The notes under the pieces were generated by a model that worked only from the letters and a program-made list of their open reading frames with translations, was not told the origin of the DNA and ran no database searches. Source: a virus. Taken from it: 64,000 bases of DNA. The DNA lies in IMG/VR virus record IMGVR_UViG_3300025030_000064, positions 1 to 64,000 of that record; one strand, given 5' to 3'. A program made the position numbers and the translations under genes. How positions within the stretch are numbered: the first letter of the stretch is position 1; every line of letters begins with the position of its first letter. Of the stretch, positions 1-63,963 are shown in pieces.

Positions 1-204
1 GATGTTATCCCTGATGTTATCCCTGATGTTATCCCTGATGTTATCCCTGATGTTATCCCTGATGTTATCCCTGATGTTATCCCTGATGTTATCCCTGATG
101 TTATCCCTGATGTTAGCCCAGATGTTATCCCTGATGTTAGCCCAGATGTTATCCCTGATGTTAGTCCCGATGTTAGCCCCGATGTTATCCCTGATGTTAG
201 CCCC
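1..204. repeat. 12-bp tandem repeat, 17 copies, continuing off the left edge
   Basis: The unit is GATGTTATCCCT. Seventeen units fill 1-204 without spacers; nine identical units come first, then variants GATGTTAGCCCA, GATGTTAGTCCC and GATGTTAGCCCC alternate with it. A degenerate 18th unit follows to about 216. Variation falls in the first two codons of each 12-bp unit, read leftward, so N-I is constant and the first two residues vary. This fits a protein-coding repeat, and copy number may vary between isolates. Confidence 0.95.
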
Positions 205-435
205 GATGCTAGCTAATATCTGACAGCCTAATGGAGAATCCATAAAAAATACTTTTGGCTTATCTTTTTTACAAAAAGAATATAACCATTCAATTCCTTC
301 TTTTGCTTTTACTTTATCTATTTCTTGATCTTTATAAAAAAGATTTAACCATTCATTTCTAATGATAGGAATTAAAGCCTCTTGTTCTGGAGTTAATGAT
401 TCTAATTTGACGATATCAGTTTTTTGTTGTTTCAT
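1..435 (-). CDS. Tetrapeptide-repeat protein, 3' end beyond the window (partial)
   Basis: The leftward frame opens with ATG at 435 and stays open for 145 codons to the window edge, so the C-terminus is missing. The first ~78 residues are ordinary globular sequence (start MKQQKTDIVKLESLTPEQEA; a DSPLGCQ motif near residue 70). After that it becomes a tetrapeptide array of the type [R/G/W][D/A/T]NI, encoded by the 12-bp repeat at 1-204. Phage and bacterial proteins with a DSPL..Q motif followed by RDNV/WANV-like repeats are known to me and are usually of unknown function; such short periodic repeats often form a solenoid. It is the last visible gene of the leftward block, 20 bp after the 456-1130 gene. 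The rightward frame through the array (MLSL repeats) is an artefact. Confidence 0.8.
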   Translation of the reverse strand, partial: MKQQKTDIVKLESLTPEQEALIPIIRNEWLNLFYKDQEIDKVKAKEGIEWLYSFCKKDKPKVFFMDSPLGCQILASIGANIRDNIGANIGTNIRDNIWANIRDNIWANIRDNIRDNIRDNIRDNIRDNIRDNIRDNIRDNIRDNI

Positions 436-1253: not shown

Positions 1254-1913
1254 TTATAAGTTATTTGCAGATTCTTTTAACTCATTAGATTTTTGTATTA
1301 ACTCTTCTGCTTTTAATAATAATTCTTGTTTTTTAGAATTATTATTATCATATGGTAATCCTGTTTCAACTAGAATACCATAAGCTATAGTTCCTGATTC
1401 TAATTTACCACAAGTAATAGTTTTTTCACTATCATTACTTAATTGTTTCCACCAACAAGTACCTGCAAAAATATTAAAATTTACAGAAAGTATAAATTTA
1501 CAAGTTATAGATAATCCACAAACGATTCCACTACCAACTTTGATTCCCCAACCAGCTTCGATTCCCCAACCAGCTTCGATTCCCCAACCAGCTTCGATTC
1601 CCCAACCAGCTTCGATTCCCCAACCAGCTTCGATTCCACTACCAACTTTGATTCCCCAACCAGCTTCGATTCCCCAACCAGCTTCGATTCCCCAACCAGC
1701 TTCGATTCCCCAACCAGCTTCGATTCCACTACCAACTTTGATTCCACTACCAACTTTGGCTAAAATATATCCTTTAGCTTTAAATGATATATTTTTAACA
1801 TAACCTAAATTTGATTCAACTTCGATATTACCATCAAAATTAGTTAAATCTTCTTTGCCAATATAATTATTATTAGCATCAAGATGTTCTTTTGTAATTA
1901 CAAATGTTTTCAT
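1254..1913 (-). CDS. Hexapeptide-repeat (GxGIxx) beta-solenoid-like protein
   Basis: A 219-residue protein in three parts: an N-terminal ~50-residue domain, thirteen exact or near-exact hexapeptides (EAGWGI or KVGSGI) spanning about residues 53-130, and a C-terminal domain with paired cysteines ending in a short charged helix. Gly/Ile hexapeptide arrays of this form are known in phage and bacterial proteins and are predicted to coil as a beta-solenoid; the function of the family is not established. The start ATG at 1913 is preceded by a TTAACTTTGA element and, further out, by a terminator that insulates it from the gene upstream. Confidence 0.8.
   Translation of the reverse strand: MKTFVITKEHLDANNNYIGKEDLTNFDGNIEVESNLGYVKNISFKAKGYILAKVGSGIKVGSGIEAGWGIEAGWGIEAGWGIEAGWGIKVGSGIEAGWGIEAGWGIEAGWGIEAGWGIEAGWGIKVGSGIVCGLSITCKFILSVNFNIFAGTCWWKQLSNDSEKTITCGKLESGTIAYGILVETGLPYDNNNSKKQELLLKAEELIQKSNELKESANNL
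1524..1757. repeat. 18-bp tandem repeat, 13 units, coding
   Basis: Thirteen 18-bp units encode the hexapeptides of the 1254-1913 protein. Nine are of the EAGWGI type and four of the KVGSGI type, in the order KV, KV, EA x4, KV, EA x5, KV (read leftward). Units of one type are identical at the DNA level, which suggests recent amplification or homogenisation. Confidence 0.92.
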
Positions 1914-2244: not shown

Positions 2245-2856
2245 TTAGGAATGATTGTGAATGTTAAAATTAGAATTATTTAAATAGTTTTTAATACGAT
2301 AACAAGTATTTGGTGTTAATCCTACATATGGATCTGTTTGAAAGAAATGTTCTTTTTGTTCAGGTAACATATCTGAATCGTCATCAATAATTACATAGTT
2401 GTCAATATTGTCATATTTATTAAGAAAGTCTTGTATTTCTGTTCCTCTTAATGTTCTACGTGTATTAGTGATTCCAACATAAGTGTTCCTTGGAAAACCA
2501 ATAGCATTGAACCATTTATCCCAATCATTAGTATCTTTAAAATGATTTTTCCATACAGATGAAATACAAATCTTAGCTTGTGTATCAATACATAATCTAT
2601 TCAACCATTCCCATTTAACAGAATCAGTTTCTTCTTTTAATCGCTTATAAGTATAATTATAACTAAACAGGTCTTTTGGTGATTTATGATTAAGCAATGA
2701 AACAGATTTGTATTTAAACCCATTAAATATCCACTTAATCTTTGATTTAAGCCACCATTTATATGTATTGTAATGTAGCCATCTCTTCCTATACCTTGCA
2801 AGGTAAAACAGCTCAGAATTCATTACTCCGTCAATATCAAGAAATATTACTTTCAT
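2245..2856 (-). CDS. HAD-superfamily phosphatase-like protein
   Basis: A 203-residue HAD-fold protein. The first strand carries FLDIDGV, with D7 as nucleophile and D9 as acid/base. ISSVWK near residue 99 fits motif II (Ser), and VIIDDDSDM near residue 156 fits the acidic motif IV that binds Mg. The inserted cap is rich in Trp, Tyr and Lys. The closest family I recognise is the HAD domain seen in RNA-repair and nucleotide-phosphatase contexts; the substrate cannot be read from sequence. Next to aberrant tRNA genes a role in RNA or nucleotide end-processing is conceivable but is only inference. The start is at the DxD strand, so no upstream extension is needed. Confidence 0.8.
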   Translation of the reverse strand: MKVIFLDIDGVMNSELFYLARYRKRWLHYNTYKWWLKSKIKWIFNGFKYKSVSLLNHKSPKDLFSYNYTYKRLKEETDSVKWEWLNRLCIDTQAKICISSVWKNHFKDTNDWDKWFNAIGFPRNTYVGITNTRRTLRGTEIQDFLNKYDNIDNYVIIDDDSDMLPEQKEHFFQTDPYVGLTPNTCYRIKNYLNNSNFNIHNHS

Positions 2857-6355: not shown

Positions 6356-6670
6356 TTATAACTTAAATTTCTTTTTGAATTCTTGCGTTGTACTGATATG
6401 AACTTCATCTCCTGCCTTTAAAGCATTCCAAGCTTCTTTAGTCATTGTCAGTTCTGCAGTATGGTCTTTACCTATTCCTATAGTCACACTTACTGAATCG
6501 ACATAATACTTTACACTATATCCTACCTTATTAAAGAATGCATTAGCTTTAGGGGAAACGACTATCTGTCTGCCAAACCTAAACATTCCTAAGATGTATT
6601 GCGTGAATTTAATATTCACTGGTCCATCTCCAACCATCTCTACATTTACATTTTCATTCTTATTTTTCAT
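6356..6670 (-). CDS. First gene of the leftward operon, unknown 104-residue protein
   Basis: Not recognised. After a polar N-terminus (MKNKNENVNVEM) the sequence is beta-rich with FGRQIVVSPKANAFF and ends in a basic tail. It is the promoter-proximal gene behind the host-type promoter at 6701-6732, so it should be among the first leftward genes transcribed by host polymerase, the position where phages often encode host-takeover proteins. This role is inferred from position only. Confidence 0.7.
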   Translation of the reverse strand: MKNKNENVNVEMVGDGPVNIKFTQYILGMFRFGRQIVVSPKANAFFNKVGYSVKYYVDSVSVTIGIGKDHTAELTMTKEAWNALKAGDEVHISTTQEFKKKFKL

Positions 6671-6700
6671 ATTCCGTATCTAAATATTAATTTATATGCA

Positions 6701-6732
6701 CAAATATATAAAAATAATTCTCTTTCTCCAAA
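6701..6732 (-). promoter_or_regulatory. Bacteroidota-type promoter driving the leftward operon
   Basis: On the minus strand TTTG (6732-6729), a 20-bp spacer and TATATTTG (6708-6701) match the Bacteroidota -33/-7 consensus TTTG / TAnnTTTG exactly. The -7 box ends about 30 bp upstream of ATG 6670. Confidence 0.8.
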
Positions 6733-7175
6733 TCTATTCATCAAATTTAACATTTATTTTTACTACTTATTTTCGTTTTATTCAATAGAACCTCTTTTAC
6801 CCTGATAAGATATTTTCTATAAGTAAACTGTTGTTACTTGCAGACCGTACCGTATTGTAGCAATTCCCCCCTGATAGACTTTCGTATTATAAAAGGCTGG
6901 GTTGTTAAAAGAGGAACGAAGGTGACGAAACCAAAACAACACAGCTAACTTTATTTACTAATAGAAAGAACGTTTATTTATATTTAGGTCACTGAGGTTA
7001 TCTAACTATATCTTTATCTCATCAGTCGCCAGTTGTTAGGTTAGAACAGAGCTGGACCTTTAACCTCACGGCTACACAGTACATCGTCATTCTTATTTAT
7101 AGAGGTATAGACGATTATTTATTTTATCCTACTATTGCCTTTTAAAGTAGCTATTATTGAACTTAGTCTAAATGC
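6733..7175. other. Non-coding part of the divergent control region with long inverted repeats
   Basis: No gene seen (the rightward ORF that begins at 7135 is judged spurious). Pairs of inverted repeats suggest folded RNA or DNA elements: CCTCTTTTA near 6791 with TAAAAGAGG near 6908; TGAGGTTA near 6989 with TAACCTCA near 7061; CCAG/CTGG nested inside the latter. AAGTAA-ACTGTTG-TTACTT lies near 6821, and CCCTGATA is directly repeated near 6801 and 6867. An origin, operators or structured RNAs are all possible. Confidence 0.4.
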
Positions 7176-7200
7176 AAAAAACCTCTGCGAATATAGAGGT
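7176..7200 (-). terminator. Intrinsic terminator ending a short leftward RNA
   Basis: Leftward reading gives ACCTCT-ATATTCGC-AGAGGT followed by six T, a typical intrinsic terminator. No leftward coding gene lies upstream within range, so it ends a short non-coding transcript. Its 5' arm overlaps a second possible partner, see the ncRNA entry. Confidence 0.75.
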
Positions 7201-7299
7201 AGCTATAAACACAAAGGCTTTTTACAGGAAGATATTTCTATCTCCTTGATATTTTCTTTATCTATTGCTACCTCAACAGATGATATAATGCAAATGAAC
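7176..7299 (-). ncRNA. Predicted ~125-nt structured leftward RNA in the control region
   Basis: A promoter matching the Bacteroidota consensus (7306-7338) should start transcription near 7299, and a terminator lies at 7176-7200. Between them is GAGGTAGC (7274-7267), which pairs perfectly with GCTACCTC (7203-7196), and an inner hairpin with AGGAGATA and TATCTTCCT around a GAAA tetraloop (7245-7226). The 8-bp closing stem uses the 5' arm of the terminator (7200-7195), so the two folds exclude each other. Both a stable small RNA and an attenuator-type switch fit; no ligand motif is recognised. Confidence 0.55.
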
Positions 7300-7305
7300 G
7301 TATTG

Positions 7306-7338
7306 CAAATATACAACCATTAATATCGTTTTTCCAAA
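7306..7338 (-). promoter_or_regulatory. Bacteroidota-type promoter for the leftward small RNA
   Basis: Minus-strand TTTG (7338-7335), 21-bp spacer and TATATTTG (7313-7306). Both boxes match the host consensus. It lies just 20 bp from the rightward promoter's -33 box, so the two divergent start sites could interfere. Confidence 0.75.
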
Positions 7339-7357
7339 TAATTTAACATAAATTTTA

Positions 7358-7389
7358 TTTGCATTATAATATGTTTCATTATATATTTG
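7358..7389 (+). promoter_or_regulatory. Bacteroidota-type promoter of the rightward block
   Basis: TTTG (7358-7361), 20-bp spacer and TATATTTG (7382-7389) match the host consensus exactly. ATG 7422 follows about 33 bp after the -7 box. Confidence 0.82.
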
Positions 7390-7421
7390 TATTTATTATA
7401 ACGAACACTTAATTTATTAAT

Positions 7422-7772
7422 ATGAAATATGCAATAGTAGAAACACGATCAGACATCTTTATTAGAAAGTTCGAAAAAGTATCAAGCAACAATGGTACTG
7501 CTATAAAAGAAATAAAAGATATCCTAAGTAAAGAGAATGTTAAGCACGACTCAGACGTAGTAAGAACACAGGTTGATGTTGGTATTGTAAATTCAAAAGT
7601 AGACAATAAAGAAAACAGGGATGTTAAGGTCGTTTCTATTATTACTGAGAAGGAGTATGGGTTATATAAGAAAGGCTCATTGACAATATCAGACATGATA
7701 GAGAAAGACAATACTCCGAATATGCATGATTGTAATAGATGTATTCACAATAATTTTGAACTTAAAAAATAA
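7422..7772 (+). CDS. First gene of the rightward block, unknown 116-residue protein
   Basis: Not recognised. The first 25 residues (MKYAIVETRSDIF...) look like a beta-alpha start; the middle is charged, and the C-terminus carries CNRCIHNNF with a single C-x-x-C pair. It sits directly behind the best rightward host promoter and 16 bp before the next gene, so it should be expressed early after infection if host polymerase uses that promoter. Confidence 0.7.
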   Translation: MKYAIVETRSDIFIRKFEKVSSNNGTAIKEIKDILSKENVKHDSDVVRTQVDVGIVNSKVDNKENRDVKVVSIITEKEYGLYKKGSLTISDMIEKDNTPNMHDCNRCIHNNFELKK

Positions 7773-8202: not shown

Positions 8203-8628
8203 ATGGCTAAGAAACAAGATGACTCAGTTATATTAAAAGTCCAATCTAATAATATAAAGAAAGACAAGACTACTACTCAAAAGGTAACAGATATCATAGC
8301 CAGAGAACTACAATCCCCTACTAAACTAAAGGTAATAGGTCAATGGATACTTGTAGAGACAGTAGAGATTAAACCCAGAGAAAAGACAAAAGCAGGAATC
8401 ATATTACCTTCAGGAGAAAACTCTCAGGATAATAAGAAAGAACTCTATTGGGATGAAAATCCTGCTCAGGGAGTAGTAATAGGTGTTGGTAAGTTAGAGT
8501 TAGAAAAAGGAGAGATAAAACCATTAGACTATGTCTACCTGGCAAAGGACCCGAGAAATGCTATCATGCATAATGGTAAATGGTACGCATTAGTAATTGG
8601 TCTTGATATTGCTACAGTAGTGGGCTAA
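8203..8628 (+). CDS. GroES-like co-chaperonin
   Basis: A 141-residue protein with the GroES barrel pattern: WILVETVEIKPREKTKAGIILPS (first strand and start of the mobile loop), GVVIGVG in the middle, and a terminal HNGKWYALVIG-type strand. Family members cap GroEL; phage versions such as T4 gp31 replace GroES for folding the capsid protein. The mobile loop is longer than in host GroES because of an inserted acidic stretch, and the first 40 residues are extra. Position before the head module fits capsid folding. No GroEL is seen in the window. Its stop overlaps the next ATG (TAATG). Confidence 0.65.
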   Translation: MAKKQDDSVILKVQSNNIKKDKTTTQKVTDIIARELQSPTKLKVIGQWILVETVEIKPREKTKAGIILPSGENSQDNKKELYWDENPAQGVVIGVGKLELEKGEIKPLDYVYLAKDPRNAIMHNGKWYALVIGLDIATVVG

Positions 8629-9313: not shown

Positions 9314-9741
9314 TAATTAGTGAAGAGATGTTAGCTGCCATAAACAAGACAGCACAGGATTTGGGATTACAACCAAATGTTGTTCATAAGATATACGAAG
9401 AGCAAGTACACTACCTGGAATTTATGATGTCTCAGTTTAACTTACACGAACAGGGTAGTTATATAAACATTAAGATTCCTTTTATATGTAACTTCTATAT
9501 TAATAACTTAAAAGTATATATAAAGAGAATCAATCGTGAGAAGTCTGTCAAGTATCATAAGTATGTAGAACACGAAAATAAAAGAATAGAAAATTTATTA
9601 AGAACACATCCAAAGCATGTCAAATTTATTAAATCTCTCAGAAGGAATCGTAAATCCAAATGGAAGTTTATTACAGATACTCATCTTCAAAGAATTGTGG
9701 AAAAGAGACCAAAGCAAAGAAAAGGAAAGAGTGCTAAGTGA
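9310..9741 (+). CDS. Conserved small protein upstream of terminase
   Basis: A 143-residue protein. Residues 1-45 form helices (SEEMLAAINKTAQDLGL, VHKIYEEQVHYLEFMM); residues 55-72 give a YINIKIPFICNFYIN strand motif, and the C-terminal third is strongly basic. The helix pair followed by an IPFIG-type beta hairpin recalls the HU/IHF-like small proteins found near crAss-like terminases, but the match is weak. The last 125 nt are shared with the next gene in another frame. DNA binding is plausible because of the basic tail. Confidence 0.7.
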   Translation: MIISEEMLAAINKTAQDLGLQPNVVHKIYEEQVHYLEFMMSQFNLHEQGSYINIKIPFICNFYINNLKVYIKRINREKSVKYHKYVEHENKRIENLLRTHPKHVKFIKSLRRNRKSKWKFITDTHLQRIVEKRPKQRKGKSAK

Positions 9742-10186
9742 ATTAGCTTATATCTATTATAAGGTTGATTGGAAGAGTGAGTATTCACAGTATGGGATAG
9801 ATATGGATGCTCAAATAGGAGAAGATATATTTGGAGATAGAGATTATCAACCAGATATACTAATGGAGAAGTGTGTAGAGAAATATAGAGAGCTACAGTT
9901 TACTCCATCACTATCTCTGATAGGTACGACTCTGATGGCTGTTAACTCAGTAAAGTATTATTTTGAAGAGATAACCATAAAACAGAACGATACTGCTAAA
10001 GAGAAGAAAGACAAGTTAGAGAAGTTTGACTTAACGAAAGTATTAAAGAGCGTAAAAGAGCTAGGAGCAACTATAGATGCTTTAAATAGTCTTCAGGATA
10101 GAGTAATGAAAGATGAAAAAGAACTAAATATAAAGATACGAGGTGGTGGTCAAATAGGTATTTTTGAAGATGAAGCACCATGGTAA
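9617..10186 (+). CDS. Terminase small subunit candidate
   Basis: A 189-residue protein ending 9 nt before the large terminase. The motif IFKELWKRDQSKEKERVL followed by ELAYIYYKVDWKSEY is one I associate with a conserved protein next to TerL in Bacteroidota phages; the middle is helical and the tail acidic. Small terminase is inferred from position and helical makeup. That conserved motif begins inside the overlap with the 9310 gene, so the early start at 9617 is needed and the 125-bp overlap is real dual coding. Confidence 0.55.
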   Translation: MSNLLNLSEGIVNPNGSLLQILIFKELWKRDQSKEKERVLSELAYIYYKVDWKSEYSQYGIDMDAQIGEDIFGDRDYQPDILMEKCVEKYRELQFTPSLSLIGTTLMAVNSVKYYFEEITIKQNDTAKEKKDKLEKFDLTKVLKSVKELGATIDALNSLQDRVMKDEKELNIKIRGGGQIGIFEDEAPW

Positions 10187-44962: not shown

Positions 44963-47900
44963 ATGAGAAAAGATTTATATCAGTCTATATTAAATGCACA
45001 AAAAAATAATGTAGATACTGAATCTGGAATACCTACTCAAAGCAGAAGAGTTTATGGAAGAAGTTTTGTAGGTGATTTGGTTGGAAAATCTCAATATGAT
45101 AAAGGGTTTATATCACAAGATTGGTATGAAACTACTCCATCTGACATAAACGAATATAGAGGACAAAATCAACCTTGGTATGACCAATTAGGCAATGCAG
45201 GTATGAGAACTCTTAGTGAGTTATCAGTAGGCACAATAAAAGGGATGACAGATATTCCTGATATGCTTAAAATGTTATTCTCTGAAGATGGTATGGCTGA
45301 TGTAGCGACTAAAGAATTTCAGAATGAAATATCAAGAAGTCTAGGCGAAACGGAAGAACAAGTTAACGAAGCTTTTCCTATTTATAGAACTCAGCATAAT
45401 AAAGGTTTCAGTCCATTACATTTCTCATGGTGGATGGAGGGGGTACCTTCTGCAGCATCTACAGCAAGTATGTTTATTCCTATTTTTGGTTCAGGTAAGA
45501 TAGCATCTATGATAGGCAGATATGGAACAAAGATGTTTACCGGAATAAAGATGGCTAAAAATGCAGAAGCTATATTATCTACTTTCGTAGGTACTACTTT
45601 TGGTAATCAGATAGAAACATATCAACAATGGCAACCACAGGCAATAGAACTTAGAGATAAGATGATCCAGAATGGCATGTCAGAAGAAGAAGCAGATGTT
45701 AAAATAAAAGAAGAAGGATGGAAGAATCTTGTTGGTAATTTAGCTAATATCCCATTAGATATGATAGGTGCTTATCATATGTTTAAGCCTATTGGTGGTA
45801 TCTCTCCACTTAAAAAAGACTTTTGGAAAATGTCTGGTTCGGGACCGAGAACTATATATGAGAAACCATCTGTTTTAGGTACGGTAAGAAAGGAAATGAT
45901 TCCTGAAGCTATACAGGAAAGTAATAACTATTATAATCAAGAAAGAGCAAATAGAAATGTAGATATTTCTTTAGGTTTATCTACAAAAGATTATACTTTA
46001 TCAGAGGCTATGACTGATCCTGAATTTTGGACAGCAACAGCATATGGTGGATTAGGTTCTTTAGCTTTCACAGGTGCAAGTAATATAGGAAGACAGGTTT
46101 CTGATAATGCAAGTTATCTTATGGATAGCGAAAAGATGAAGGAGTTATCAAAAGAACAGAAAGCAAAAGGATTAAATATATTTAGTAATGTAGGCAAGGC
46201 TTTTATTACCGGAGAGACTTCTACTGAAACTTCTATTTATCAGAAACAACAAGAGATATTAAAGCCAATAATGGATAATATCATTAAGTTATCTGACATA
46301 AAGAATGTAGCAGATATGACTGGTGATATGGCTGTTTATGATCAATCAAGAGCGGCATTAGAGACTGAACATGTTTTACTACATATGCATAGAGGTACAT
46401 TTGGAAAGTATATGGAGAATGTAGATAAAATGCAAAGTGTACTTAATGAACAAGAAGATTATGTAAAAAAACAATTAGAACAAACTCCTGATGATGTAAA
46501 TCTTCAACAGTATTTAAATAATATTAAAGAAACAAAACAATTAGTAGATAAATCTAAACCTGAATTATTATTAAAGGAACAAGATTTTATATCTGCTATT
46601 AATAATCATAATATTAATGACTCGTCACGTATTGGAGAATTTGTAAGAACAAAGAGTGAGATAAGACAAGTAAAGAAAGATATGAATGATGCATTAGGTC
46701 ATGCTAATGCTATTTATGATTATGATGATACTACTAAATATCTCGTAGGTACTACAGAGAGAATGCGTGAGATACAGAATGAGATAGAAGGATTACAAAA
46801 GAAGGTAGAGGAAAGTACTAAGTCAGTATTGACATTCTTTGATAAGAAGAAGATAAGAAGTTTACAGGATAAGTTATCTAACCTGGGGAAAAAGAAAGAC
46901 GGAACATTTGATGTTAATATAAAAGAAGATGAGTTAAGGGTATTGGCAAAGAAGACTCTTAAGCTATTATCTCTTGAAGATAATGTAAAGGATATTATTA
47001 ATGGTAAAGCAAGTGAGAAGATAGGTATAGAGGACCAGATACTAAAAGAAAAGAAGCATGAAGGATTAAAGAATTATATGTTTGGTAATACTACCAATAA
47101 AGGTATCTATGATAAGGTAGAAGAACAATATAATGAAGAACGTCTTATTAATATGCAACCTCTCAATGATAAGATTATTGAGAATCAATTAGAGAATGGT
47201 ATTACAATAAAGGATATATCTTCACAGGCTGTAGCAAATAATGCTACAGTATCAGAATCAGCAAAGACATCATTAAGAGATAAGATAACTAATGATGTAG
47301 ATGCTGCAGTTAATAGCGTATTACCTCTTCTTCCTAATGAGACATTAGAAGGATTAAAGAGTGCATTAAGAGATAAAGAGACATTAGAGAGTGTAATGCA
47401 AGATGAGTTTAGTAATTCTATTCCTAATGCTTCCAAGATAATAAAAACCTTATCTCCATTTATAGGATATAAACAAACTATAGAAAAAATTAATTCCTTA
47501 GACTCAAAAGAGAAAGAGATAAGAAGTGAAGAAGATATTTTAACAGATATATTAAAGAGTGATATCTCTGCAATAAAATCTATTGTTTCTAATATAGAGA
47601 ATGATAGTAATAATGCAGATGAATCTTTACTGAGAACAGTACACAATAACCTTGTTAACATACATAACTTTCTTATTAATGATAAGAGATATGAAGATGT
47701 TGATAAGACAAAGCTTATTGAGAGCGTAGAGAAGTTAGAGAAAAAGATTGAAGGATTGTTTCAAGAAATGAATAAGAGAAGAGATAATGAAGAAGCAAGA
47801 CAGATAGAAGCATATAACTCATGGATGAGATCCATCTCTTCAGGATTAAAAGAATTAGGGTTAAAAGAAGTTACTAATACTAAAGAACTCTATGAAGCAT

Positions 47901-50900
47901 TAGAATCCTTAAAGAAAGATGACAAGCTAAAATCTGATTTAGAGATATGGTTAAAAGAAGGATTATCTGAATTAAATAAATTGTCAGGTCTTGAAGGAAC
48001 TAAAGACATGGTTAACCTGGATGCATTTATTAATTCTTCAAAACTATTAGGTGGCAATCCTGTTATAGCTGAAACATCTTCATTTGCTAAATATAAAATA
48101 TCTCTTAATGTAAATGACATAGATGTATCAGAATTTCCAGACCGAACAATACAACAACGTCAACAGGCAGCAGAGATAATTAACCAATATAAAAAGGTTA
48201 AAGGACTACAAGTATTATCTGGGATGGTAAATAGTACTATCACAATTAAAGATGTAGTAAGTGATATTAATAAATGGTTAGATAAGAATCCTTCCGTTGC
48301 TCCATTTACTGAACAGGATGTAGTTATTAGAACAGCATTATTATATCTTTTTAATGAGGATATAGATATAGTTAATCTACAAGGTATAGGAGGCACTGGT
48401 AAATCTAAATTAGTTACTAAAATAGTATCTGATATCTTTAGAGAAAGAAATGGTAATGAAAGTGTAGTTGCTTTTGGAGAAGGTTTCAGAGCTAATGAGA
48501 TTATTAATGAATCATTGTTCGGTGATCAAGGCAAAGACTTATTGTCATTTAATAGAGATGGTAGTCTTAAAGATGAAAAAGCTTTTGAAGAAGCTATACG
48601 TGGTAAAAAGCTATTAGTTATAGATGAGATAGGAAGACTTAATAAAGAAAAGTATATTACTATTTCAAGATTATTATTAAAGATACAAAGAGAGAATAAA
48701 GGTTTTAAGATATTACTTACCGGAGATCAGAATCAATTATCAGGACATAAGTTTCCTACTATGAGAATTGATAACCCGGGATTTGACCTTACTAAATATA
48801 TTATTCAGTTACCTGCTCTTGCTATACCACAAAGAACTAACAATACAGAAGTACAAAGATTACAAGATGTATTTAATGGTGCTGGTGGAAGAAATGTATT
48901 TGAAGATACATTAAACTACATGCATGATTCAAGAGATACTAATGGAGTGGCACATGTAACAGGACCATTAGAATTCGAAAATACTATTGCCAGTAAAACA
49001 TTATTAGATGATAAAAAGAAAAGAGCAATAATAACTACTGACGATAAGGTACAATATTATAAAGGAAAGTTTCCAACTACTGAGGTTCTTACTGTAGGAG
49101 AAGTTGAAGGTAATAAGACTGGTAATGCTCATGGAGTAGAATATAATGAAGTCTTTGTAGATGTAGAATATTCTGCAAAGTATATGATGGGAGTAGCAAG
49201 TTATGATAAAGTTAATACTATGATGTATCAGACTCTATCAAGAGCAACAGATTATATTATGGTACTTAGTGATAGTTGGAAAGGAAGTGATAGTATAACG
49301 AGTATAGATAATTCTTCTATAGCAGAAGAAAAGAAAAAGAAGTTTGCTGCTAATAGAATAGCTTATGAGACATGGATAAAAGAAGAACTATCTGAGATGT
49401 CAGATGGTAAAGAAGAGTTCGTTAAACAAGAGGAAACAGGTGTTGTAATTCCAGAAGAAGAAATAATTGTTGATATCATAGATGAAGAAGATAGAGAAGA
49501 TGGAGATGTATTAGTTGAACAACCCATTGCAGAAGAAGAAAAGAATGAAGTTGAGAATACAGATGCATTATCATTACATAAACAAGTACTTCATGGAACA
49601 GAATATAAATATGAAGGAGTAAGTGCAGTAGAAGAAGGAAGTATAGTAGAATCATATTATAGAAGTAACGCAGAGAATGATGGAATACATAAAGTATATG
49701 TATATAAAAAAGTTGATGATAATTACGTAGAGGTGCTTACTAAAAATGCTACTATAAGTAAAGAAGAAGCAAAGAAACAAGGGTTCTTTATATTACCTAA
49801 AGAAGCAAGAGTAACACCACAAGGCAAATCTATATCTACTGCAAGAGTAACATATAAACATAAACTATCATTAAATTATAGTAAAGAAGGACTGCCTTTA
49901 AATGACACTACTGTAAAGAAGAATGAAAAGATAGTTAAGACCAGGCTAAATGCTAAAAAGATTATAGGCAGTGATATCATTACTGTTGATAATAAGTTTA
50001 TAGAAAAGAATACTAAGTCAGACAAAAATCCTAATGCTATTATTCCAAATGGTTTTACATTAGATAAAGGTAAGATATATCAGATAGTTACTTACGATAC
50101 TAAAGCAGATAAGAGAAAATATGCTTTTATTCCTATGGACACAAATAAGATGTCATTAGATAGTGTAGAAGTAGATATGCATGGTAACGTAACCGAAGGA
50201 TCATTATCTGTATTAAGCAATTTTGCCAATACTATTTCTGATTTTGAAAACCAGATAGAACAACTCACAGGATTAGAGATAGTCTATGGAAGCAATAACC
50301 CTACAGAGGAAAAGATAGGAGATAGTTTTATTCCTGAAGGTAGAGTGTTTATGGATATCCTAGATAACACTTCTATTAAAGAGGATGGAACTATAATATT
50401 AAAAAGTAAGTTAAAGAGTTCTAATGCAGTTATAGAGGAACTAAATAAGTTAGATGTAGAGATAAAAAAAGATATAGTAAGTCAGATTAATGACATTAGA
50501 AATAGTCTTTACGAAAGAAAGAAAGAGACTCTGGTAAATATAGAGAATGCAAAGAAAGTTGATGGTAGTGATAATAAGTATTTAGTACAAGGTGATTCTA
50601 CAAGAAAGCCATTAGGACATAATTGGAGATTGATAGAAGGAGTAACGTCATTAGGTCATGTAAGTGAAGATGTATTTAAAGACTATTCTATTGTAGAAGT
50701 AGGAAAGAAAGATAAGCATTATGAACTAAGACGTACATTTGAATTTGAAGGAACAGAACCATTAAAAGGCACACCTATATTATATCATGTGCTAATAGCT
50801 CAGAACCTATCTTCTAATGCAGGAGTATTAGAATTTGATGGTAAGCCAGAGATAGAGATATTCCTTGTAGCAGACACTAAGGATGGTGTATCTGAATACC

Positions 50901-53900
50901 ATAATGATAAGACAAGTCAACTTACTATAAGACAAAGAAAGATTAGTAATCTTGTTTTCAGAAATAATAAATACAATATCTCAGACATAAGAGATAATGA
51001 TATTGCAAATATAGATTCGTTCAATGCTGATATTATAACTGCAGCAAATGATGGTATCAATAAGAGGGTAAGAGGACCAGTTCAGACAGCATTTAATAGA
51101 ATAGCAAAAGCCAACAGAAAAATCTATTTAGGTACTGCAGATGTAAATAAAGAAGGTTTATATTTCGAAACAAGAAAACAAATCTCTAAGAGAGACGGTA
51201 AAGAATCAACTAACTTTATTTCCCTAACAAGTTTTGATGGAGAAGATATCTTTAATAAGTCAGACAATAAAGAAGGTTTATTGCCATTAAGAGATGTTGT
51301 GCAAACATTAATAGGTACAGATGAGAATGGAGTAAGTACTGTTAATGGTTCGATGGGTTTAAAAGAACAGGTAAGAAGTAACTTAGTTAAGAAAGCTTTT
51401 CATCCTAAAGACGATGCTAACCAAACAGAAGTAAGCAATATAAAAGAAGCGTTATCTAATAAGATAACTTCTAAGTTTAATGATGTGGTACCTACCTTTG
51501 TATTATTAGAAGAAGAGCAGGAACAGATTAGTCAGGAAGAAATATCTAAACCGGAAGTAACTTCAAATGTATTAATATCGATAAACAATATCCTATCACA
51601 AAGCATTTCTGATAATGATAAGATATTAAAGCTATCAGACTTATTAATAGCTAATGAAGATTCTGCGGTAGTTATTGGAAAGTATATTGACATGCTAGAG
51701 AATAAGGCTAACGATTCTACTACCGATACAGAAGAGATAGATCCTAATGATATTATAGATAGAGATTATATACCTAAGAGAATAACTACTTCAAGAACTG
51801 TTAATGCATCTCAGGTGTTTAATATTGCTAAGACATATATTAAAGACTTATCAAAAGAAGAAGTGGTAGTATTATCTGCTTTAGATTTTGAAGACCAGTT
51901 TGGTAAGATGCCAATAGGTAAGTTCGTTAATGGTATTATATATTTAAAAGAGAATAGTGATAATACCTTTGATAAGGAGACATTAAAGCATGAAGTATTC
52001 CATAAGATATTTAATCAATATCTTACTCCGGAAGCAAAAAATGCTATCCTTACGGTAGTACGTTACTCTTCTGAATTCTCTTATGTGGCAGAGAATGAAA
52101 ACAGGGATGTTCAATCTTATTCAGATATAGAACTTGAAGAGTATATAAGTTTATTATATCAGAAATATGACAGAGGAGAAAGAAAGACTTCTGACAATCC
52201 TCTTATGCAATTTATCTATGACATCTTAGGGTGGTTATCTGACATTATAGACACCTTTTATAATACTATTAAGGGTAATGATAAGAATAGTCTTTATAAG
52301 TTATTCAGAGACATTAATAGTGGCAAGGTTAATACAAGGATGGTTAACAATGGAGAAGTAGGAAGAAGCAGTAATTTACTATTAGTGACAAAACATTTTC
52401 CTGCTAATACCGAAAGATCATTAGAGATGTATCAACAGGCAAAAGAATTTGTTAAAGGGTTACTATATAAATACTCTGTTCTTAATCTTGATAAACCATA
52501 TTCTTTTATTGATGAGGATGGAATATTACAATCTAATGATATAGGATTACATGAAGCATTAGAAAGTGTTAAATATCTTTCCAAAGCAAAAGCTAAAAAA
52601 GCAAAGGTTCAACCTTCTTCAGAAAATAAATTTCTTGAACATCTTACAATAGAAAAGAATGGAAGATATCCTGTAATCGAATGGGTAATGTCTGAAGTAT
52701 CTAATATAGATAAGGAGATGCTTTTAGAGATGAAGAAACTTAATGCAGAGAAGATAAGATCAGAAGTAGCAGATATAACATCAGCAACTCTTGATGATGA
52801 GATAATGGATAATGCATTAAAGAATTGGGAGAAGAATATCTCCCAGGAACTAAAAGAGATGTTATCATTTATTAAAATAAATAGAATTAATTATAAAGGC
52901 ATTTCATTAGGACTTGATAATAAGGGTGATTGGTATGATATTTTACTTGATGGAAATATTATTGGAGAATATAAGTTATATTTAGCTAAAGGGAATGATG
53001 ATAATTATTCAATATCTATTAAAATAAATGAAAAATATCAAAATAAAGGTTATGGTCAAATTGTACATATTTTAGTAGCAGATAAAATTAGCATAAAATA
53101 TAATAAATCTCTTTATTCAGATTGGACCAATAGCATAAAAGAAATAAATGCATTAAATGCTTTAATTAAAAAAAGATATGCAGAAAAAATATCTGATTAT
53201 GGTGAATTAAAGGATGGTGTATATAGTTCAGATAAAAGATCTGTAAGAATAAAAACAAGTTTAGAATTATCTAAATTTATTAATTCACGTAGAGCATTTA
53301 TCCTTGTTCTTAATAATCTTAGAAAACTTGATTTTAGAACATACAATAAAGACTGGACAACTATTCTTCAACAGATAACAGAGGCTAAAGAAGGAATGGT
53401 AGAAGGTAGTTACGACTATGTTGCTATGTCAGCTATAGAAGACTTAATTAAAAAGGCTAATGAGTTATATAAGCTAGGAGATAGGTCTTACTCATGGGTT
53501 GATGGATTCTCTATTATAGGTAATAACGCTTATGTAGATGGTAAGGTTATAGAAAAAGGTCTTAATAGTAAACAATGGTTTGAAGATATTCTAAAGGCGA
53601 TAAAGAAAAGTGATAACGTAATGTCTGGATTAAAAGAATTTGTTACTAAACCAACAGATAATTTTATAGTAGGATATATTTCCAGATATTACAGAAAAGC
53701 ACAAGCTGAAGATATAGTAGGTAAACTTTATCATCAACTGTATTCTTTAGTAGAGAATAATCCTTATACCTTATTAGAATCTCTAAAGTCATATGATGGT
53801 AATGTAACAGGAGATATAAAGTTAGTAAGAAGAAATCCTAATGGCATCTTAGATGCTACTATGATGGATATATGGAGTGCATTATATAATCTTCATGTAA

Positions 53901-56900
53901 GCGCCAAGAATAATGATAAAGCAGTTAAATCAAAATATGATGAGATTGTTAATATTATTGTTAATAAGAAGTACGGTAAAGCATATAAGAAAAAAGGTGG
54001 TGGTCTTAATGCAGAAGGATTAAAACATGTATTTAATCTTATGAATTATCCTTTTGATGCTACAGGATATAAAGAAACAGAATTAACTTCTATAATCACT
54101 CAATTAGGTCATATCTTTAATTATGATTCATCAACGATTATGAATGATGATTTTGATGTAGCCTTATCAAATAGTTCAAATAGGATCAGAAATATTGCTT
54201 CTATCTTAATAAAGAATTCAGAGTTAGTAAGAGCACAGAACTATCTTAACTTTGAAGGAAAGAAGATATACCTTAACGTATCAGGTTCATGGTTTTTCGA
54301 TGTCATGACAAGTATATTAAAAGGATATAATAGCAGACCTGATTACCTGAAAGCTGATAACTATATTACAAGAAATAATATCTTTGATCAGAAGTCAAAG
54401 AATCCTATTAATACGATATATGAGTATAATAATGTAGATGGTTATACTAATACTGATAAAGACTATAGTATAGGGATAAATAAATATACTGACAGGACAT
54501 ATCATTTAACCAGGTTCCTTGGTAATTTCATCTCTACAGTATCGTTACAGAATGATCAAACCAACTTAACTTACTTTCAGAGCACCCAGACACAGGCTGA
54601 CCGTAAAGATATGGCCGCTGTACGAGTTAATATATTAAGTAAATATGATTTATTAAAAGGCATTAAAAAGGCAACTGAATTTGAATCAGAAAGAGATAAA
54701 GTTCTTAAAGACACAAGAACAAATGCAAATAACTTATCTGCTAAAAAATTCAATCAGTCTCCTGACGATATTTATAAAAGGTTAGAGAAAGAAGCGGAAG
54801 AAGATTTTAATGAATTTATGGAGTCTATTTCTTATACTAATAAGCAAGGTAAGGAAGTAGATGAATTGTATAAATGGGAAGGAAAGATTAATACTGCATT
54901 TAATAAAGTGTTTGGTAGTGATTATAAGGGAATAGAAAACCTTACTTTAAAAGATAAGGCTAAACTATTATTTAATACTTTCTCATTAAATAACTATGTT
55001 AACGGTTTTCATCTTGACATGTTGCTTACTGGTGATCCTGCATTATTAGGAAAGTCAGGTAACCTCGTTAAGAGGATGAAGATGTTAAAGGCTTCTGGAA
55101 ACAAGATGATGATAGGTAAAGATTATGCTAGTCCTACATCAGACTATGTAGTATTTAACGACCATGAAGAGTTCTATACTCAGTTAAGAGATATAGATAA
55201 AAGCTTTGGTGGATTATATGATAAGAAGATAGATACTACAGATGGAGTTACCTTCGTTCTTCCTGAGACCATGGATGAAATACGCAAAGGAACCAGAGAT
55301 GAGAGTATCGGACCACTATTAAAGAACGTGATAGCTTATGTAGATAATAATGGAATACCTTATTATATAAAGACTGCTACAGTAGAGTTGACAGATGCAT
55401 TAGTGACTATGATGCCTGAGTTAAATAAACAAAGGGATATAATGCGTAATGCTGGTATTAAACATTTAATAGCTAAGTCGTCAATGAAGATGGCAATGCC
55501 TATAAAAGAAGATATAGTAAATTGGGGAGATAATATATTAGATAACCATAAAAGAGTATTAGATAATCAATATTACAGAGTACAGTCTAATCCATTATCA
55601 GAAGCAGAGTATATTACTAATCCTTCACAGATGATGTATTGGCTTAACACTAATGGATTATCAAATGATGAAGCAGCAATAGCATATCAGGCTGATGCAG
55701 ATATAATGAGTTTACAATGGAAAGTATATAATGCAAAGAGAAAGATTATAGATGAGAATGGTATTGTCAATGAGGATAATCTAAGAAAAGCTATTATAGC
55801 TAACTTGGGGCCGGATAATGAAAAGATAACAGATATGTTATTTAATGGTTTATCTTTAAACTATCCTGCTATAACAGGTAAGATGACTATACAGATAGCT
55901 TCTATATTATCTAAACAGAGATCAACAATTAAACATTCCGGAAATAAGTTTGTTCTTGCTCCAGCTATAGGAAACTATGTATATCAAATAGGTGATGAAG
56001 TATTATCTTATGATAAGTTAAAAGATAAGAGTACTGCAGATATGTTTTTTGAGATACCATCTTTTCAAGTAAGAAATGCACTTATTGATACAGTAGATTT
56101 ACTTACAAGACCCGAAGGAAAAGAATGGGTTGGTAAATATCTTAATGAGTTTGATTGGGTAAAAGACTTATCTGAAGAGAATAGAAAAATATTTGATGAG
56201 CACTTGGCACATTATAAAGATGGCAAGATGCTTATACCACGTAAACTTAGGATGAGAGATAGTAAAGGATTTACTGAGGTTATCATGCCAAGAGAATTTG
56301 CACAGAAATATGATCTTAAGACAGGAGAAAAAGTTATTCTTAATGCTAAGATAAGTAAGTTACTTGCAGAGGCTATTGGTGTTCGTATTCCAACAACAGG
56401 AATACATTCTACCATTGCTATTAAGGTAATAGGTATCAATGAAAGCACAAATAGAATTATTGCTCCTGATGAATTGGTAGCTATTCACGGATCTGACTTT
56501 GACGTTGACTCACTCTTTATTATGAAGAGAGAAGTAGATGAGTTAGGTTATCCTATTGGATATACTAAAGAAGGTGTATGGAATGAAGCTTATGAGATAG
56601 AAGTTAATGCTATGGAAGAAGGTAAGGATAAATGGAAACTACAGATAGCATTGGCAAAGAATAAAAAATTTGATGCTATACAGAATGTTCTTACTAAAGA
56701 AGAGAATAGAGAAGATATGAATAAACCTATCTCTCTTGATCCGATAAAGAATGATATATTTAAAGGTATATCGAAGAATGATTATCAGCAATGGTTAGAA
56801 ATGCTTAATGATACTATTGAAAACTTTAAAGAATTCTTTAATGAACAGTTAGAACAAAATGTATCTATTGAAATAAGAGAACAGTTACCTACCCTATTTG

Positions 56901-63925: not shown

Positions 63926-63963
63926 AAAAAAAATAGGGCAAAGCATTTCTGCCTCACCCTATT
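63924..63963 (-). terminator. Terminator between the rightward block and a probable leftward block
   Basis: AATAGGG (63932-63938) and CCCTATT (63957-63963) form a 7-bp stem, extended inside by GCA/TGC. On the plus strand its left side is an A-run, so leftward transcription would read the hairpin followed by nine T, a strong intrinsic terminator. Rightward it is followed by CAACC and is weaker. It suggests convergent genes to the right of the window. Confidence 0.7.

Follow-up and report, generated by a model that had tools for sequence, protein, structure and literature searches.

A predicted short leftward RNA with a bistable intrinsic terminator in the divergent control region of a crAss-like phage

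Transcription attenuators, such as the T-box leaders, the Bacillus subtilis rplJL leader (PMC4538822), and transcriptional riboswitches, share a 1:2/2:3/3:4 layout of alternative pairings in which the terminator comes last and sequential folding decides the outcome. The short leftward RNA predicted here has the same layout but differs from these leaders in having no regulated gene directly downstream, no known aptamer or protein site, and no leader peptide, and in standing at the head of a phage genome arm. The OOP RNA of phage lambda, which is antisense to the cII mRNA and which, to our knowledge, has not been described as bistable, is likewise a short leftward RNA with its own promoter and terminator near a divergent/origin region; opposite the present RNA, however, there is only an unlikely 62-codon frame with a TTG start. 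Antisense regulators of the P4 CI RNA/P22 sar type, which bring about termination by base pairing with complementary segments, are also short phage RNAs with complementary segments, but here both segments reside in a single RNA, and no trans target longer than 12 nt was found in the phage. The kissing-loop complex of ColE1 RNA I and RNA II offers a parallel for two hairpins with fully complementary loops, although in our case the loops belong to one RNA, one of them lies in the terminator, and the kissing is predicted from complementarity only. Finally, the intergenic sRNAs of Bacteroides combine a sigma-ABfr-type promoter with a Rho-independent terminator (PMC7366714), as does the element described here, which differs in being phage-borne and for which no sequence relationship to these sRNAs was found.

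The window, i.e., the whole stretch of DNA that was analyzed, comprises 64,000 bases of a 93,498-base virus record. Judged by its gene content, its source is a crAss-like phage: the terminase is 33-42% identical to the terminases of many crAss-like phages, a GroES-like gene is found at 8203-8628, and an uninterrupted frame of 4955 residues (44963-59830) has a size that fits the giant crAss-like polymerase (as judged by length). The rightward genes extend from 7422 to 63925, and the leftward genes occupy two stretches, 6670-456 and 93278-63986. Tandem arrays of the 12-bp unit GATGTTATCCCT, which translate as MLSLMLSL on one strand, are found at both ends of the record (window positions 1-223 and record positions 93,440-93,498). 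The genome probably closes at these arrays and, since the same array is present at both ends, the leftward genes probably form one arm of ~36 kb. The frame at 1254-1913 (minus strand) contains many tandem GSGIEAGWGIEAGWGI-type units, and among the leftward genes the one at 2245-2856 (minus strand) encodes an RNA-repair-type HAD domain (PF18143, E value of 1.6e-21). In the crAss-like phages crAss001 and phi14:2, the virion polymerase makes the early genes and the host enzyme probably makes the later ones (PMC8375218, PMC10136315).

The predicted RNA element is located in the 751-bp gap between the two arms (6671-7421), where it heads the leftward arm, close to the GC-skew minimum. The features of the element and of its surroundings are as follows.

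7338-7306, minus strand: promoter of the sigma-ABfr (Bacteroidota) type, TTTG-N21-TATATTTG, full consensus; predicted RNA start at ~7303-7299
7299-7176, minus strand: predicted RNA of ~124 nt, free of ATG, delimited by the promoter and the terminator
7281-7260, minus strand: H1 (pairing 1:2), 8-bp hairpin AUCUGUUG-AGGUAG-CAAUAGAU with its loop at 7273-7268, from folding
7274-7256, minus strand: segment 2, GAGGUAGC-A-AUAGAUAAAG, the 5' strand of the competing (antiterminator) helix in fold A
7246-7226, minus strand: H2, GAAA-capped hairpin common to both folds, from folding
7223-7176, minus strand: H3 (pairing 3:4), intrinsic terminator of 14 bp, a 2x2 internal loop, and 5 bp, from folding
7216-7196, minus strand: segment 3, CUUUGUGUUUAUAGCUACCUC, the 3' strand of the competing helix in fold A
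7358-7389, plus strand: divergent host-type promoter of the rightward (late) arm, consensus match
6732-6701, minus strand: separate host-type promoter of the gene at 6356-6670, consensus match, 30 nt ahead of the ATG
7284-7298 and 7354-7368, no strand assigned: arms of a 15-nt inverted repeat, TATAATGCAAATGAA and TTTATTTGCATTATA (14 of 15 positions), straddling the divergent promoters

The sigma-ABfr consensus consists of TTTG near -33 and TAnnTTTG at -7 (PMC7366714), and the host promoter reported at 7338-7306 in the initial annotation matches it in full. Strict matches to this consensus number three in the gap, namely the three promoters listed above, and eight in the whole 93.5-kb genome; shuffled versions of the gap carried 0.03 on average, and none of the 300 reached three. 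The rightward transcript would start at about 7395. On the minus strand, the promoter and a strong terminator are 125 nt apart, and the existence of a transcript is predicted from these two signals.

The terminator is a 48-nt hairpin with the 6-nt loop CUACCU at 7202-7197, six U residues at its end, and a folding energy of -20.4 kcal/mol. The initial annotation correctly recognized an intrinsic terminator here but misplaced its boundaries: the 7200-7176 segment is a weaker sub-fold (-6.5 kcal/mol) of the hairpin at 7223-7176. The 8-bp inverted repeat that it listed (GAGGTAGC at 7274-7267 with GCTACCTC at 7203-7196) is present and extends to 11 of 12 positions; however, such 8-bp repeats with arms 20 nt or more apart occur in 11.7% of shuffles and therefore carry little weight on their own, and the competing stem has 18 bp, not 8. 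This 2:3 helix (fold A) is formed by three blocks with one mismatch, and its segment 3 spans most of the 5' arm of the terminator plus the terminator loop. The GAAA-capped inner hairpin was found where it had been seen, whereas H1 and the match of its loop to the terminator loop had been overlooked; H1 is the missing anti-antiterminator.

Folding of the growing RNA bears out the proposal that the long stem and the terminator are mutually exclusive. Until it is about 96 nt long, the nascent RNA forms H1 and H2; it adopts fold A at 104-116 nt with a probability of ~1; at 120-124 nt, H1 re-forms and the terminator fold (fold B) appears. At full length, the terminator fold has an energy of -34.9 kcal/mol versus -29.5 kcal/mol for fold A (Vienna energies, i.e., those of the RNA alone, without RNA polymerase, pausing, or pseudoknots). 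The Findpath estimates, which are upper bounds, are about 8 kcal/mol for the path from H1 to fold A and about 22 kcal/mol for that from fold A to the terminator, so the outcome is expected to be kinetic and hard to reverse. RNA polymerase covers about the last 10-12 nt of the transcript, so that at the U-tract the exposed RNA would still be within the range that prefers the long helix. The promoter, the terminator, both folds, and the order and energies of their formation are all computed.

Several comparisons address whether this architecture exceeds chance; because the site was chosen by eye, all of these figures are somewhat generous. The fold of the whole RNA has a z score of -4.47, with none of 200 shuffles equally stable, and the energy of fold A was matched by the best fold in only 1 in 1000 shuffles. 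When the terminator was kept and the upstream 74 nt were shuffled, only 5 of 3000 sequences produced a competing fold that equaled fold A both in strength and in the number of pairs to the terminator arm. In the energy gained by hiding the terminator arm (-11.9 kcal/mol), the site ranks third among 202 terminator-like sites of this and related phages and first among the 8 in this genome. The H1 loop, AGGUAG, is exactly complementary over 6 bases to the terminator loop, and a pair of short loops complementary over at least 6 bases was seen in 1 of 4000 shuffles and in none of ~2060 native 124-nt pieces of the window; this match is not independent evidence, as the 2:3 pairing already implies the complementarity of the loops. 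A kissing contact between them in the terminated RNA is possible. Each of folds A and B contains four G-U pairs, located in H1, H3, and the 2:3 helix, and the plus strand folds poorly (z score of -1.59; -21.8 kcal/mol versus -34.9 kcal/mol for the minus strand), which together favor an RNA function on the minus strand.

We favor, tentatively and with somewhat less than even confidence, the view that the element is a leader RNA with a conditional intrinsic terminator (attenuator). The terminator lies in an untranslated leader (the RNA has no ATG), the exclusive antiterminator is preferred before the 3' arm of the terminator emerges, and H1 provides the 1:2 hairpin. The spacing of 125 nt between a full-consensus promoter and a strong terminator, the fold switch, the shuffle tests, the rank among the terminator-like sites, the strand specificity of the G-U pairs, the kinetic choice suggested by the path estimates, and the position at the head of an arm, at the GC-skew minimum, all support this reading. 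Under the proposed mechanism, host RNA polymerase would start at about 7300 and move leftward, and H1 would fold first. The emerging segment 3 would then open H1, with the H1 loop as a toehold, and form the long 2:3 helix, which would mask the 5' arm of the terminator and let the polymerase continue into the leftward arm. If H1 held, or if a ligand, protein, or RNA steadied it, segment 3 would remain free, the terminator would form, and the ~124-nt RNA would be released. Faster opening of H1 would thus favor readthrough, and its stabilization would favor termination; in the finished short RNA, the H1 loop could kiss the terminator loop over 6 bp, which would lock this state. Such a scheme presumes that the region is transcribed, that termination is regulated through an effector, and that readthrough matters for the leftward arm, all of which we infer. 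A terminator that acts on host polymerase where this arm begins could exclude host transcripts or admit them at a chosen time.

Several observations speak against this reading: no homologue was found in the collections searched, the gene at 6356-6670 has its own consensus promoter and is separated from the terminator by ~440 untranslated nt, and no effector, ligand pocket, or leader peptide was seen in the predicted RNA at 7299-7176. The earlier suggestion that the switch controls readthrough toward this gene is possible but not required, and the dependence of the gene on readthrough is doubtful, given a promoter (6732-6701) only 30 nt before its ATG. Between the terminator and that promoter lie about 350 gene-free nt (6780-7130) with a G+C content of ~36% (31% in the genome). 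On both strands, the folding of this segment does not exceed that of shuffled sequence, and it matches no Rfam family, so it was rejected as a structured RNA.

Searches with the Rfam covariance models gave no match at gathering scores, and the subthreshold matches (mir-255, STnc130, and IS009) are at chance level, so that the RNA was rejected as a known riboswitch or a member of a curated RNA family. Its likeness to transcription attenuators concerns the mode of action, which we regard as the favored but still tentative interpretation, and not membership in a known attenuator or riboswitch family. Leader-peptide attenuation was rejected for lack of an ATG on the minus strand between 7299 and 7176, and a cis-antisense RNA of the OOP type was rejected for lack of a credible gene opposite 7176-7299. 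A Y RNA with a TROVE/Ro60 partner was likewise rejected, as PF05731 was not found in the 93.5-kb record. The comparison with 6S-like RNAs in the initial annotation did not hold: those are long rods of ~180-200 nt with a central open bubble and a match to the Rfam 6S family, whereas the present RNA has 124 nt, three hairpins, and no Rfam match. The central proposal of that annotation, a short minus-strand RNA that has a host-type promoter and a terminator of its own as well as attenuator-type exclusive folds, is supported computationally.

No DNA homologues of the RNA were found in phages by blastn; of two exact-pattern searches of viral contigs, one gave seven matches, all unrelated on inspection, and the other gave none. 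No relatives were found through the neighboring proteins encoded at 7422, 6356, and 8203, and the protein encoded at 9617-10186 retrieved only a contig of the same species (L001) that is too short to reach the RNA. Two near-identical contigs are known, and both end before the RNA region. Apart from the same species, the terminase relatives are at most 48% identical, and none of their 32 divergent gaps contains a minus-strand TAnnTTTG with a comparable terminator. A single-sequence covariance model run on 1.1 Mb recovered only the RNA itself and its own reverse complement. A gene-poor segment of ~1 kb with a higher G+C content lies in the divergent region of one relative (L022, 4260-5300, with a counterpart in L036), and no Rfam family was found there apart from a nearby tRNA. 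The present element is likely real and specific to its lineage, either a leader or a small RNA, with a terminator that is bistable and well formed.

The best-surviving alternative, which we consider possible but somewhat unlikely, is a stand-alone phage sRNA, in which the terminator would be constitutive, the compact ~124-nt RNA would act in trans, and the long helix would be a folding intermediate. Bacteroides sRNAs are usually recognized by an intergenic promoter paired with an intrinsic terminator (PMC7366714), the full-length RNA is more stable in its terminated fold, and complementary loops are as rare as the above counts indicate. In such an sRNA, the H1 and H3 loops would kiss, or GAGGUAG or the single-stranded 5' end would be exposed to host or phage mRNA. 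However, the phage genome has no perfectly complementary target longer than 12 nt, the loop match follows automatically from the 2:3 pairing, and no homologues were found in the collections searched.

Control at the DNA level appears rather improbable. In that case, GAGGTAGC/GCTACCTC and the related GTAGCWAT words would be operators of a phage regulator at the divergent promoters, and the RNA folds would be by-products. GTAGCWAT occurs four times in the gap (at 6857, 7147, 7199, and 7264) and five times in all intergenic DNA, versus about one occurrence expected from coding DNA; this word was chosen post hoc, however, and two of the four gap copies are the inverted repeat itself. The separate 15-nt inverted repeat, which straddles the two divergent promoters and overlaps the -33 element of the plus-strand promoter and the 5' end of the RNA, is a possible operator pair, with a third copy, TTTGCATT, after the terminator (7181-7171). 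A further AUAGCUAC just beyond the terminator counts on the same side and, in readthrough RNA, could also pair with segment 2. On the other side, both the terminator stem and the 2:3 helix contain G-U pairs, for which DNA offers no symmetry, and the stability is confined to one strand. Operator sites of a phage regulator may also coexist with the RNA switch, or they may be the actual function.

A transcript linked to a replication origin, serving as a primer or in DNA opening from a position comparable to that of lambda OOP, is very unlikely. The GC skew has its minimum at 7408 and its maximum at 63938, and in crAss-like phages a GC-skew inversion separates the replichores (PMC10136315), but the skew also tracks the coding strand, which switches in the gap, and neither iterons nor a known origin motif was found there. 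Chance, meaning either that an ordinary terminator happens to have a complement upstream or that there is no transcript at all, is highly improbable: although this is one genome, with a site picked by eye and with 2 of the 202 sites having a stronger competing fold, the promoter, terminator, H1, 2:3 pairing, and loop match all fall within 130 nt.

If the element is a conditional terminator, the RNA may switch the early-gene (leftward) arm. A more specific version, which we consider quite unlikely, is a kinetic switch at the divergent hub, where host polymerase would halt after ~124 nt or else gain entry to the 36-kb leftward arm, and kissing loops would lock the off state. The hand-over between the virion RNA polymerase and the host enzyme in crAss-like phages is known in outline only (PMC8375218, PMC10136315), and such a switch, if true, would be a phage-timing attenuator of a kind not described in Crassvirales. 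Searches of the open-licence literature yielded no comparable leader or sRNA from a crAss-like phage, so that even an RNA acting solely as an sRNA would be an element type unreported for these phages within the literature searched. A conditional terminator at this position would provide a regulatory element that is both concrete and testable, as well as a simple natural example of hairpin opening by a nascent-strand toehold.
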